Assembly: GCA_018064905.1 (NCBI GenBank)
Contig: JAGHUJ010000023.1
Location: forward strand, 29,711 to 93,710
DNA from: Candidatus Treponema equifaecale
Lineage (GTDB): Bacteria; Spirochaetota; Spirochaetia; Treponematales; Treponemataceae
Direction of reading: 5' to 3'
DNA: 64,000 nucleotides
This document shows, piece by piece, positions 3,857 to 47,157 of this stretch. The notes beneath the pieces are model-generated. The model made no database searches. It was given only the letters and a program-made list of their open reading frames with translations, and was not told the DNA's origin. Positions within the stretch are counted from its first letter, which is position 1; every line of letters begins with the position of its first letter. Both the position numbers and the translations under genes were made by a program.

Positions 3857-5956
3857 ATGAAAAATCGTTTTCTTCCAATTCTATTCATTTTTTCTCTTTT
3901 TACGCTGTTTTCTTGCGACATGAAGAAGGAAGAAATCAAAATTGATTTGCATGATGAATTGTACTGGGCTCCCTGCGATGCTGAAAGTTCTCCAGAGAAT
4001 ATTGAAGCCCAGAACATTGATTTTCAGAAATTCGAAGTCCACAATGGAAGAAACATCGCCAGACTGGTAGGCATGAAAGGCTCTTACATCTGGCTTAAGG
4101 CTGATTTTGAAATTTCACCTGAATTAAAGAATGAGTCTCTGGGACTTGCGATTTCTTACCTTCACTATGCCTGCAAAACTTATTTAAATGGAAGTTATGT
4201 TGGAAGCAGCGGAACCTTTCCTCCTGAAGAACGCTCCAACATGTATGCGTCCAGCTATTTTTCATTTCCAGAAGGCCTTTTGAATCAGGACGGAAAAAAT
4301 ACACTTCTTTTAAAAGTCTGGTGCCACGGCCGCAGTGCAATTTCAGACAAAGTTTTCGTTATGAAAATGGATGAAGCCAAGCAGCTGGCAAACCAATATA
4401 CGGCAAACAATTCAAGAATGTACATAATGTTTGAAGGCGGTATGTTCTCTGCTTTCATTCTGTTTTTCCTTGTATGGCTTCGCCGCAGGGAAGAAATGGA
4501 CAAGCTTTTATTTGCAATTTTAAATCTTGTTTCATTGGTTTTTACAATTCCTTTCTTTGCAGAAGAAGTTCCATGGTATACCACAACGGCTCTTCCTCAT
4601 ATATGGTTCATAAAGCTTTTCCTTTGTGGAAGCATGTGTGATATCTGTTACTTTCTTGCATCCTTCAACATTCACTATCTCAGAATAAAGGAAAACAAAA
4701 TTGTCAAAAGGGTAAGACTTGGACTTCTGCTTTTTTCACAGTTTGTATGTGCCGTTGCCCCAGATTACGATGCCTTGATGGCTGTCTGTCCGTTTGTAAT
4801 GGTACTTTGTCTCGTTCACATCATGTTCGGACTTGTTTATCTTGGAATCCACATGTACAAAAGAATTAGCCTTAAAAGAGACATTATCTTCCTTAGTTCT
4901 TTCACTCCACTTGCACTTACCATTATTGCGGATTTCATAATTAAAGACGGATTTTACAAGCTGGATGTTCCATACCTTACTGTTTACGGCTGGCAGCTTA
5001 CGATTGTTGCCTTCTTCGTGCACCTCATCATTGAATACACAGGACTTGCAAAACAGGCTGAATATCTCAATGTTGAGCTTGAAAACGAAGTCATTGCCAA
5101 AACCCAGCACCTTATTGAAGTCAATGACAGGCTTGAATTTGAAAAGCGTCGTTCCATTGCTGATCTTGAAATGGCTGCAATCGTTCAGCAAAAGTATTTT
5201 CCATATCCAAACAAAAAATTCCGTGGATGGGACATTGCAATCTGTTACAGTCCTTGTTCAAAGGTTTCTGGTGACCTTTACGACTATTATCACGAAAATG
5301 ACAGCGAAGATTTGCACGGGTTCTCGCTTTTTGACGTTTCTGGACACGGAATTTCTTCCAGCTTGATTACAATGCTTGCCAAAAACATAATTTTCCGTTG
5401 TTTTAAAGAATGCAGGGATCGCCGTAGGCCTGTTTCTGAAGCCCTGTATGAAGCAAATGATCAGATTATTGATGCAAAGGGAAATGTAGAGAATTATCTT
5501 ACAGGACTTATGTTCAGATTTGGAAATTTTGACGAAAAGGATGAAGTTGTAATTGAAATGGCCAATGCGGGGCATCCAAATCCGATTCTTTATTCTTCTA
5601 AGAGCAACATAATTGCAGAAATTGAAAACTCTGTTTCTGAACCTCATTATGGAGCCATTGGAATCAAGGATATTGCAGTTTCATTCCCGCCAATTGACTT
5701 CAAAATGGGAAATGATGATATTCTGGTCTGCTATACTGACGGACTTACAGAAGCCATGAACAGCAACCATGAGCAGTTTGGGGTGGAAACTGTAAAGAAA
5801 ATAATTCGCGACAGTTACGCAAAGAATGCACAGTCAATTCTTGAAGATATCATCGACGGCCTTTATGAATTCATCGGTGACACTCCAAGAGACGATGACC
5901 TGACAATCATGGTGTTCAAGCGCGAAGATTCCCAGAACTTCATCGAAGAACTTTAA
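3857..5956 (+). CDS. 7TMR-DISM-type membrane protein with SpoIIE/PP2C phosphatase domain
   Basis: Lipoprotein-like N-terminus, extracellular domain, seven TM segments, then SGDLYDYY...DVSGHGISSSLITM...DDDLTIMVFK. Confidence 0.85.
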   Translation: MKNRFLPILFIFSLFTLFSCDMKKEEIKIDLHDELYWAPCDAESSPENIEAQNIDFQKFEVHNGRNIARLVGMKGSYIWLKADFEISPELKNESLGLAISYLHYACKTYLNGSYVGSSGTFPPEERSNMYASSYFSFPEGLLNQDGKNTLLLKVWCHGRSAISDKVFVMKMDEAKQLANQYTANNSRMYIMFEGGMFSAFILFFLVWLRRREEMDKLLFAILNLVSLVFTIPFFAEEVPWYTTTALPHIWFIKLFLCGSMCDICYFLASFNIHYLRIKENKIVKRVRLGLLLFSQFVCAVAPDYDALMAVCPFVMVLCLVHIMFGLVYLGIHMYKRISLKRDIIFLSSFTPLALTIIADFIIKDGFYKLDVPYLTVYGWQLTIVAFFVHLIIEYTGLAKQAEYLNVELENEVIAKTQHLIEVNDRLEFEKRRSIADLEMAAIVQQKYFPYPNKKFRGWDIAICYSPCSKVSGDLYDYYHENDSEDLHGFSLFDVSGHGISSSLITMLAKNIIFRCFKECRDRRRPVSEALYEANDQIIDAKGNVENYLTGLMFRFGNFDEKDEVVIEMANAGHPNPILYSSKSNIIAEIENSVSEPHYGAIGIKDIAVSFPPIDFKMGNDDILVCYTDGLTEAMNSNHEQFGVETVKKIIRDSYAKNAQSILEDIIDGLYEFIGDTPRDDDLTIMVFKREDSQNFIEEL

Positions 5957-5970
5957 GACTATTCATTCAT

Positions 5971-6127
5971 ATCAACTTGTCACTTCGCGTGAATTGTGTC
6001 ATTTCACATCAACATGTCACTTCAACTGAATTGTGTCATCTCATATCAACATGTTACTTCGACTGAATTGTGTCATTTTCGTATCAACATGTCACTTCGA
6101 CTGAAGCGTCAGCGGAATGGAGAAGTC
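5971..6127 (+). repeat. 37-38 bp tandem repeat, four copies, the last merging into a GTCA-TTCGA half-element
   Basis: atcaacatgtcacttcgactgaattgtgtcat units starting at 5971, 6008, 6045, 6083. Confidence 0.9.
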
Positions 6128-43151: not shown

Positions 43152-43257
43152 TTTATGCAACTCCTGTATGTGCCGCCAGCGCGGAAAATAATTACAAAAT
43201 GTGTTCTATTATTATATCAATTTGCCGAAATGTTGAAAATATGGTGAATAAAGGTGG

Positions 43258-43372
43258 GGCTTACGGCAACAAGTTGCCGTCGCTACGTCCAGGGTTCCGC
43301 TGTCGCTCCATTCCTCCGCTGCGCTACGGAACGCCGCCCTTCCCATCGCTAAGCCGTTCAGCAGTCAGCACT
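43258..43372. repeat. GC-rich intergenic repeat-like segment
   Basis: ttccgctgtcgctccattcctccgctgcgctacggaacgccgcccttcccatcgcta, compositionally unlike its surroundings. Confidence 0.5.
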
Positions 43373-43387
43373 TGGATCACCTGAACC

Positions 43388-43717
43388 TGTATATATTTCT
43401 GCGGCAAGTCTGAATATATATACAAATTTTACAAGCCATGGCAGCCTGTTTACCTGAAATGTATATATATTTTGGTGAACTTGCAGAAATATATACAAAA
43501 TTGGTTCATTGTTACTGTGAATCAGGCTGGAAATGTATATATTTTTCTCGCAACCAAGAAAAATATATACACATCTGAAAGAATCCTTCCTCTGTTTTCA
43601 CGGATTTTGTATATATTTCCAGCCTTTGTTCTGATATATATGCATTTTCCTCATTTCAAACCCCTCTGATGCCTGAAAACTGTATATATTTTTACAAATG
43701 TTGTTCCTCTATATACA
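43388..43717. repeat. Five-unit array of inverted TGTATATATTT / AAATATATACA motifs with 73-74 bp period
   Basis: Forward motifs start 43388, 43460, 43534, 43608, 43681; reverse TATACA/TATGCA at 43419, 43492, 43566, 43639, 43712. Confidence 0.93.
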
Positions 43718-43794: not shown

Positions 43795-44592
43795 ATGCAG
43801 GATTCACTTGTTGTCATTGCCGAGGCGCGCTTAAAAAAATTAAAGCCCTTGTATGCAAAGTTGACTGCGCGCCTCAAATCAGCTCCAGTCGGAATTCTTC
43901 GTGTTCTTACCCGGGGCCGCAGTTTTAGTTATTACCACATAACAAAGAAAGGTGACACAAACGGAAAAATAATTCCAAAGAACAACCAGAAACTGGCGGC
44001 GGCCCTTGCACAGCGGGATTACGAAAAGAAACTTAAACAAAGTGTAGAAAAAGAAATAAGGCTTTTGGAAAAAGTGACTAAAAATTATAGAAAAATCCCG
44101 CTGGAACAATATTACGAAACTCTTTCAGCTGGCAGAAAACGTCTTGTGGAGCCACTTGTTTTGTCAGACAGAGAATTTGCAGAAAAATGGCAGAAAGTTT
44201 CCTACAAAGGAAAAACTTTTGCAAGCGATGCTCCACAATACTACACTGAAAACAATGAGAGGGTTCGGTCTAAGTCTGAACTGATGATTGCAAACGCATT
44301 AAAACGGGCGGGTGTTCCATATCGTTATGAATTTCCGCTGGAACTAAAGGAATTTGGAACGGTTTACCCTGACTTTACTTGTCTTGATTCAAACACCCGC
44401 ACTGAAATTATCTGGGAGCATCTTGGAATGATGGACAGTCCTGAATATGCTGCCGCTGCCGTAAAAAAGGTGAACCATTATCTTTTGAGCGGTTATATTC
44501 CAGGCAGGAATATGATTCTTTCAATGGAAGGCAGTGGCAGTCCTTTAAGCACAAAAATTGTGAGCAAAATTATAGAAGAATGTTTTGCCTGA
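43795..44592 (+). CDS. Putative PD-(D/E)XK-like nuclease of unknown function
   Basis: SKSELMIANALKRAGVPYRYEFPLEL...GTVYPDFTCLD...TEIIWEHLGMMDSPEY; AGGAGG upstream of ATG 43795. Confidence 0.7.
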   Translation: MQDSLVVIAEARLKKLKPLYAKLTARLKSAPVGILRVLTRGRSFSYYHITKKGDTNGKIIPKNNQKLAAALAQRDYEKKLKQSVEKEIRLLEKVTKNYRKIPLEQYYETLSAGRKRLVEPLVLSDREFAEKWQKVSYKGKTFASDAPQYYTENNERVRSKSELMIANALKRAGVPYRYEFPLELKEFGTVYPDFTCLDSNTRTEIIWEHLGMMDSPEYAAAAVKKVNHYLLSGYIPGRNMILSMEGSGSPLSTKIVSKIIEECFA

Positions 44593-44667
44593 ACGGGCCA
44601 GGGTATGGAGCTGCGCGAAGCGGCCGCTGGAAAGCGGCTGACCGTTAGGGAACGGCGGAACACCCGG

Positions 44668-44799
44668 TGTGAGGGGGGCTGTCTAATAAGTAAGAAGTGT
44701 AGCGCTCATTGAGCCTGTCGAAATGACTGCTACACTCGATATGGTGGTTTCGACAAGCTCAACCACCGCGAACAATACTTTTGGGACAGCCCCCTCACA
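44668..44799. repeat. Nested inverted-repeat element containing a REP-like pair
   Basis: Outer TGTGAGGGGGGCTGTC / GACAGCCCCCTCACA, middle AGTGTAGC / GCTACACT, inner cattgagcctgtcgaaatgac and ggtggtttcgacaagctcaaccacc (44743-44767). Confidence 0.85.
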
Positions 44800-44920
44800 G
44801 GCCCCCATATATTGAATATAACCCTTAAAATATTGTATAATTATCGATGTATTTACGAAAAATTGCATATTTATACAGTTTTTATGCATAATTTCCATTC
44901 GTTTTATACAGGAGATTTCC

Positions 44921-46293: not shown

Positions 46294-47157
46294 ATGGAAA
46301 GACTTGATAAAATTTTAGCACATCACGGTTTTGGTACCAGAAAAGATGTTAAGCGGCTCTGCCATGATCAGGTGGTTTTTGTTAATGGAAATCTTGTGAC
46401 AGATCCTGGATTTAAGGTGGACATTTCCTGTGACAAGCTGGTGATTGATGGTGAAGAAATCAAGTTGCAGCACGATTTGTACATAATGATGAACAAGTGT
46501 CAGGATGTGGTTTGTGCCAATAAAGACGGCGAGCATCAGACTGTGTTTGATTTGCTGGATTCTGGCTTGCGGCACAAATTTCTTGGCGGTGACCTGCACT
46601 GTATGGGCCGTCTGGACATTGATACTGAAGGCCTGTTGATTTTGACTACTGACGGTCAGCTTACTCACAAGCTCCTTGCACCTAAAACTCATGTTCCAAA
46701 AACTTATGCGGTTGGTTTGCGTGATGAAATCCCAGTAGAAAAAAAATCTGAACTGGTAGAACTGTTCAAAAAAGGATTTCACATTGACCGGGATCAGAAT
46801 GAAAGCGAATTTGAATGTGCTCCAAGTGAGTTACAATTCGCAATTCGTAATTCGCAATTCTCAATGGAAAATATGGAGAGTGGTGATTCTGTCATTTCGA
46901 CTGGAGTACAGTGTAACGATTCTGTCATTTCGACTGGAGCGGAGCGTAATGGAGAAATCTCCAGAAAAATTGACTGCCTTTTGACCATTTACGAAGGAAA
47001 ATTTCATCAGGTTAAGAGAATGTTCAGTCAGATTGGAAACGAAGTGGTTTATTTAAAGCGTGTAAAAATGGGAAATCTGGAGCTGGATCCTTCAATTAAA
47101 GTGGGCGAGTACAGGGAACTTACGGAAGACGAGATTAAGCTGCTCAAGATGGAATAG
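46294..47157 (+). CDS. rRNA pseudouridine synthase (RsuA/RluB family) with in-frame repeat insertion
   Basis: MGRLDIDTEGLLILTTDGQLTHKLLAPKTHVPKTYAV; CLLTIYEGKFHQVKRMFSQIGNEVVYLKRV. Confidence 0.92.
   Translation: MERLDKILAHHGFGTRKDVKRLCHDQVVFVNGNLVTDPGFKVDISCDKLVIDGEEIKLQHDLYIMMNKCQDVVCANKDGEHQTVFDLLDSGLRHKFLGGDLHCMGRLDIDTEGLLILTTDGQLTHKLLAPKTHVPKTYAVGLRDEIPVEKKSELVELFKKGFHIDRDQNESEFECAPSELQFAIRNSQFSMENMESGDSVISTGVQCNDSVISTGAERNGEISRKIDCLLTIYEGKFHQVKRMFSQIGNEVVYLKRVKMGNLELDPSIKVGEYRELTEDEIKLLKME
46831..46962 (+). repeat. Repeat block embedded in frame in the pseudouridine synthase gene
   Basis: caattcgcaattcgtaattcgcaattc (46834-46860) and gattctgtcatttcgactggag at 46885 and 46918 (33-bp period). 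Confidence 0.85.

Follow-up and report, generated by a model that had tools for sequence, protein, structure and literature searches.

Phased arrays of inverted half-sites upstream of a PD-(D/E)XK-type nuclease gene family in Treponema and Lachnospiraceae

Directly ahead of a gene for a PD-(D/E)XK-like protein in Candidatus Treponema equifaecale lies a series of AT-rich inverted motifs, the regular phasing of which raises the question of whether the array belongs to the gene and which molecule may read it. The locus was analysed within a 64-kb stretch of the 2.8-Mb genome (G000; contig C53:29711-93710), hereafter the window, and compared with homologous loci in other genomes.

The array in the window and the adjacent gene

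TGTATATA occurs at 43388, 43460, 43534, 43608 and 43681, and TATATACA at 43417, 43490, 43564 and 43710, neither having another copy in the 64-kb window, while TATATGCA at 43637 is the right half-site of unit 4, one base off. This recount reproduced the motif coordinates of the sequence-only reading. The array comprises five inverted pairs, to which no strand is assigned: unit 1 (43388..43424, 37 bp), with the pair TGTATATATTT...ATATATATACA, unit 2 (43460..43497, 38 bp), unit 3 (43534..43571, 38 bp), the arms of which are complementary over 15 bp, unit 4 (43608..43644, 37 bp) and unit 5 (43681..43717, 37 bp), which ends 77 bp ahead of the start codon. Unit starts are 72, 74, 74 and 73 bp apart, a period of ~73 bp or seven helical turns, and the stretch from 43425 to 43680, with units 2-4 inside it, holds four unconserved inter-unit spacers of 35-36 bp. 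The alternating centre spacing of 26-27 and 46-47 bp proposed earlier depends on the centres chosen; a pair length of 37-38 bp and the period of ~73 bp hold whatever the choice.

The array is confirmed as real and beyond chance, as evidenced by five inverted pairs where dinucleotide shuffles give 1-2 at most, and by a 700-bp sliding scan of the 64-kb window in which three or more pairs were found only at the array and at one AAAATTTT low-complexity place. Tandem Repeats Finder did not detect it, and the autocorrelation suggested as a check did peak at 73-74 bp (0.384) but stayed below the shuffle maximum over lags 60-90 (99.9% = 0.396), in both cases because conservation is limited to the half-sites. 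A promoter scan of the locus gave eight sites against 4.3 +/- 2.1 in shuffles, with no convincing promoter at the gene.

Other repeats were seen in the window. GC-rich repeat-like sequence lies on both sides of the array and gene (43250-43385 and 44620-44810) and includes the inverted repeat GGGGGCTGTC...GACAGCCCCC; similar-looking dispersed repeats stand beside a gene-free (orphan) array in relatives (L231, ~4075-4290), with many short matches genus-wide. A 37-bp tandem repeat of 3.8 copies at 5966-6105 contains CAACATGTCAC, and a CAACATGTCACTTTGAG stretch also adjoins an orphan array in G048 (L231, ~3759). At 46294-47157, a pseudouridine-synthase-like reading frame carries an in-frame repeat insertion (SVISTGVQCNDSVISTGAERN) as well as a CAATTCG tandem repeat at 46834-46865.

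The gene occupies 43795..44592 on the forward strand, directly behind an AGGAGG ribosome-binding-like site, and encodes a PD-(D/E)XK-type nuclease protein of 265 AA residues, which matched no Pfam, NCBIfam or PHROG family at significant score and no solved structure in a sequence search. Its C-terminal ~125 residues match PDC-S68 (PADLOC, E 1.6e-25), of which only profile positions 1093-1218 are covered, and the C-termini of RecD-like/AAA helicases; the nuclease domain common to these proteins corresponds to codons 150-264 (44242..44586, forward strand). The conserved acidic catalytic-type residues of the PD-(D/E)XK superfamily are present in the family, in which RSKSE162, PD193F and E208-H209 are invariant, as is K225 once the helicases are added, and the canonical E-x-K reads E208-H-x in the window protein. 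Structure prediction from the single sequence was uninformative (pLDDT 42). Prediction with viral helicase C-termini gave a good model for the nuclease domain alone (residues 150-264, built with helicase homologues, pLDDT ~73-93), the best structure matches of which include the PD-(D/E)XK nucleases Bax1, DrdV, Vsr, FAN1 and MunI, none at E <= 0.001. For the N-terminal part, where the model rests on a single sequence, a helix (residues 3-29), three strands (31-38, 44-51 and 58-61) and a further helix (65-97) were predicted with low confidence.

A common layout with changing words

The sequence-only reading had proposed to look for the TGTATATATTT word itself beside homologues. No array of that word was found in the 145 other genomes of the genus, and the layout was therefore searched instead. 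Of 82 homologous loci with at least 350 bp of upstream sequence, 60 carry three or more phased inverted pairs upstream, compared to none in shuffles and none in gene bodies; in about a quarter of the homologues the detector, which compares 8-mers allowing one mismatch and overlooks arrays that are short or decayed, reported no array. Most gene copies have an upstream array of common layout and different word, among them TACGGATAAA, TACGGCTAAAA, GTACATATAATT, TTCCGACTTAAC, GGCCTACAG, GGCTATAAAT and more, including the GC-rich words GGCCTGCA and ACACGCGA in identical layout. Next to homologues, the layout is conserved and the word is not, so that a same-word search would wrongly refute the link between array and gene. 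That link, and the selection on protein-binding geometry with helical phasing suggested from the window, are both supported across ~80 homologous loci.

Three paralogues of the window gene in G000 (C171:21579-22349, C55:45969-46706 and C179:9994-10728; L017, L018 and L019) each have their own word, that on C171 being of the ACAGATAAA type; L018 has its array (CTCCGTAAA) downstream, not upstream, of the gene. Of 24 Lachnospiraceae loci with sufficient sequence upstream, 20 have arrays, often spaced 53 bp and with up to 11 units. Several of them consist of near-identical tandem units, in contrast to the diverged units in Treponema, and at four loci (L208, L199, L203 and L210) arrays flank the gene on both sides, elsewhere being mostly upstream only. 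The number of units turns over quickly: two genes 97% identical in two genomes (L149 and L157) have at least eight units upstream in one and a single unit in the other, with the homology stopping inside the array. Upstream of the G048:C14 gene (L065), three successive half-sites in units 4-5 all carry GGAGAA in place of GGATAA, a pattern resembling the spread of a new word along the array.

The pair length is nearly fixed. In 50 arrays with different words in one register, it is 34-39 bp with a mode of 37-38, made up of half-sites of ~10 bp that are separated by 15-20 bp of unconserved interior. From one pair to the next, the distance falls into clusters of 51-53, 62-65, 72-76, 83-86, 93-95 and 104-106 bp. 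The best common period of 117 distinct spacings is 10.45 bp (R = 0.874; largest value in 2000 random sets, 0.31), and the phase at a period of 10.5 bp is 0.15 bp, indicating that the pairs are whole helical turns apart.

Across eight orthologous array pairs, differences fall at 2-29% of half-site, 5-72% of interior and 2-70% of spacer positions, and half-sites are the slowest-changing class in seven of the eight (e.g. 0.22 compared to 0.72 and 0.70 for interiors and spacers), the pair L060/L146 being too alike to reveal slower half-site change. Spacers drift freely, and interiors change as fast as spacers.

Residues 30-65 of the adjacent protein account for similarity of words between homologues over and above the remaining residues (standardised coefficient 0.315, 0 of 500 permutations), in a permutation-based test in which the correction for common descent is partial. 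Among pairs below 50% identity the dependence is reduced but still present (partial r 0.17, 0 of 1000 permutations), and L073 and L064 have the word TACGGATAAA in common at 42% identity. The predicted three-stranded sheet coincides with the word-tracking residues ~31-61 (codons 31-61 at 43885..43977 on the forward strand; pLDDT ~50-67), making this the putative DNA-reading part. Since the word tracks these residues, the nuclease protein is itself the likely reader of the word in its array, as judged from this sequence coevolution.

Gene-free arrays and distribution of the family

The word of the window array is also dispersed in its genome. In G000, arrays of the same word and 73-bp layout were found on C2, C19 (two), C82, C129 and C130, with no copy of the nuclease gene beside them, and the genome holds 22 exact pairs of the window pattern against none for a reversed control. 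The spacings of these orphan arrays are 72-74, 62-63 and 82-84 bp, and with the half-sites masked there is no detectable mutual similarity except between the duplicated C2 and C82 loci (L010 and L013), the arrays of which lie upstream of MKKI...-type secreted, surface-protein-like genes. A second word, ACAGATAA, forms the gene-linked array on C171 and an orphan array on C168 (spacings 74, 95 and 74), with one further pair near a contig end on C22.

Within the genus, arrays of the words examined were found only where the family occurs. Of the 146 genomes, six have arrays of ACGGATAA and nine have multi-unit CCTRCAA arrays; all of them carry the family (6/6 and 9/9), compared to 37 of the 146 overall, and arrays of TGTATATA are found in a single, family-carrying genome of the genus. 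In G077, one of these genomes, only a broken gene copy was found along with a well-preserved orphan array. Single one-direction CCTRCAA matches in G011, G016, G052 and G100 look like chance. An unbiased scan gave a further orphan array at L115:9242-9520 (G105:C12), with the word CGATAAAA and spacings of 74, 105 and 73.

Several orphan arrays are orthologous between species (G105:C12 with G048:C10; G015:C11 with G077:C1; G105:C8 with G048:C12 and G093:C2). One intergenic site has the array in G048, G093 and G003 but not in G105, where the gap is 171 bp compared to 614 bp. Counted by hand, the majority of orphan arrays have divergent genes on either side, and two sites (L014 and L231/L236) lie between convergent genes.

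The gene family was found in 37 of the 146 Treponema genomes (25%), with up to nine copies per genome, and the homologues are mostly 35-47% identical to the window protein. It is likewise present in 35 of 100 Lachnospiraceae genomes sampled, and no full-length member was found in 199 Bacteroidota genomes, the surveyed genomes often being incomplete assemblies. Searches of 72,556 plasmids and of viral contigs returned the C-terminal domain only, with no full-length relatives, and a 4.2-kb uncultured phage record (MT839528) is the only one to match most of the protein. Among the neighbours of 75 loci there is no widely recurring family and no conserved partner gene; those that do recur look housekeeping-like rather than defence-like. 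In four Lachnospiraceae loci (L126, L188, L207 and L208), gene and array adjoin a DNA polymerase III delta-like gene, which suggests a preferred site there.

Outside the genus, the three Lachnospiraceae genomes behind TGTATATA matches carry the family and the seven other tested genomes do not. Two Lachnospiraceae genomes have TGTATATA orphan arrays but yielded no gene with this word. Two-unit TGTATATA matches in Bacteroidaceae, Helicobacter, Saprospiraceae and others come from genomes without the family and were rejected as other repeats or TA-rich sequence. Four loci of a Bacteroidaceae assembly (Horse_feces99; L027, L028, L034 and L039) contain a different dispersed element, unrelated to the family, which includes TGTGTATATA as well as a ACTACATGG...CCATGTAGT inverted repeat and is present on four contigs or more. 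In the open-licence PMC literature nothing was found on the nuclease gene or the array, and, judged from those papers, the gene-plus-array family of spirochaetes and Lachnospiraceae is apparently undescribed.

Possible roles of the arrays and comparison with known systems

We consider it probable that the array is a cognate multi-site binding platform of the adjacent protein, acting as a stacked operator through which the gene is autoregulated, with action in trans at the orphan arrays. Architecture, phasing, linkage to the gene, the coupling of word and protein, the slow change of half-sites and the confinement of orphan arrays of two further words to family-carrying genomes are observed, and from these we infer the identity of the binder, its binding as a dimer, autoregulation and trans action. 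Each inverted pair of ~37 bp would be bound by one dimer, in which the N-terminal region of helix, three-stranded sheet and helix (residues ~31-61) may read the ~10-bp half-site in duplex DNA, and successive dimers, placed whole helical turns apart, could stack on one face of the DNA and bind cooperatively. Before its own gene, such an array would be a stacked operator, and autoregulation would keep the nuclease protein scarce or parked. At 26 of 58 loci the last unit ends no more than 60 bp ahead of the start codon, a position in which a bound protein would obstruct transcription; autoregulation of the nuclease gene by its own product is thus plausible, given coevolution and position. At the dispersed orphan arrays of its own word the protein would act in trans, and a separate word for each paralogue would allow several such units in one genome without cross-talk. 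Between convergent genes, where several of the orphan arrays are placed, an operator at a promoter would be pointless, and transcriptional control is therefore not the whole story. It is possible, if somewhat doubtful, that the protein is a sequence-specific nuclease anchored on phased arrays of its own word, which would form a site-programmed network for controlled cleavage, recombination or chromosome organisation, beyond the autoregulation of one gene; word and reading domain would then diversify together, with up to nine orthogonal systems per genome, an extension that we hold equally tentatively.

Explanations in which the unit serves itself or defends its host appear less attractive. Nuclease and array could be a selfish or mobile genetic element, a functional analogue of RAYT/REPIN or of homing endonucleases, with the array as its end or recognition site and the orphan arrays as non-autonomous derivatives arising from nuclease-triggered repair. 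The patchy, multi-copy distribution, distant copies at unrelated loci with a nuclease that diverges faster than its neighbours, the arrays on both sides of the gene at the four Lachnospiraceae loci and the presence or absence of an array at the G048/G093/G003 versus G105 site would all fit such an element. We nevertheless think it unlikely, since the orphan arrays of G000 share nothing outside the half-sites except at C2/C82, unlike copied elements, and orthologous orphan sites have retained both half-sites and spacing; no terminal repeats or target duplications were noticed, short of a systematic search, and the family was not seen on the plasmids, with one phage record and only the C-terminal domain on viral contigs. 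A defence module, in which the nuclease is parked on arrays serving as operator and sponge and is released or induced against invading DNA, and in which word diversification keeps several modules independent, seems improbable. In every member scanned, the nuclease domain shares homology with the C-terminal part of PDC-S68 and of related PADLOC candidates, the catalytic-type residues E162, D193 and E208 are invariant, and the gene is patchy, fast-evolving, multi-copy and stand-alone, as would suit defence. However, the match is confined to the C-terminal ~125 residues, a domain that also occurs in ordinary helicases, the recurring neighbours are housekeeping-like and the data give no link to phages.

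Two readings dispense with the adjacent protein as reader. AT-rich words like TGTATATA would fit a wide range of DNA-binding proteins, and the prevalence of orphan arrays between divergent genes, i.e. in promoter regions, would agree with an array that serves another regulator of the host, or a nucleoid protein, as its operator and lies upstream of the gene by chance. This is very improbable, as the word varies from homologue to homologue in step with residues 31-61 of the neighbouring protein, GC-rich words (GGCCTGCA and ACACGCGA) occur in identical layout and, within the genus, arrays are found only in family-carrying genomes. The RNA hairpins that the sequence-only reading had kept as an alternative would form a series (TGTATATATTT-loop-AAATATATACA) within a leader RNA or a non-coding RNA, and every unit is indeed an inverted repeat able to fold in RNA. 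A deviating half-site, however, is matched in its partner at 0.019 per pair compared to 0.020 in other half-sites, and this lack of covariation argues against hairpins, as do the quantisation of unit spacing to the B-DNA turn (10.45-10.5 bp), interiors that drift at the spacer rate and arrays between convergent genes, leaving the RNA-level explanation barely credible.

The family offers a predictive rule, in that a nuclease homologue usually has a phased array of its private word upstream, for a gene common in two gut lineages yet without a Pfam or NCBIfam name. Dozens of natural pairs of protein and ~10-bp word open the putative recognition code of the predicted sheet to direct testing, which bears on the engineering of programmable DNA binders. 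The question is also raised of why putative nuclease-binding arrays are kept at conserved, distant intergenic places.

Among known systems, RAYT/REPIN (PMC2817692, PMC3116915) resembles the present one in that a nuclease-like gene is tied to short palindromic repeats, the cognate repeats are dispersed in intergenic regions of the genome holding the gene and the repeat sequence varies by gene family. The enzyme differs, being an HUH/Y1 transposase in RAYT and a PD-(D/E)XK nuclease here, and a Pfam scan of 26 family members matched no transposase family (Y1/HUH). Unlike REPINs, which are fold-back repeats with a conserved stem and reach more than 100 copies, the present units have unconserved interiors, show no partner covariation, are arranged in whole-helical-turn arrays upstream of the gene and form few arrays per word. 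Homing endonuclease genes interrupt their own recognition site; here arrays stand on both sides of the gene in the four Lachnospiraceae loci and elsewhere mostly upstream only. PDC-S68 and the RecD-like/AAA helicases are homologous over the last ~125 residues, including VRSKSE, PDF, E-H and K225, but are ~1200 residues long (PDC-S68 ~1221), whereas the 265-residue protein has its own N-terminal region and an array and lacks the helicase part. CRISPR arrays share the regular alternation of conserved and variable DNA; in the present arrays conservation is limited to half-sites of ~10 bp, spacer length changes in steps of helical turns and there is no adaptation or effector cas-type gene or other recurring partner. 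Restriction-modification would call for a partner methyltransferase, whereas no neighbour family recurs widely in the 75 loci. Stacked operator arrays of autoregulated DNA-binding proteins combine inverted half-sites, helical phasing and overlap with their own promoter region. The present arrays are like them in all three respects, and differ in that the putative binder carries a nuclease domain, the units number up to 11 and the word diversifies between the paralogues of one genome.
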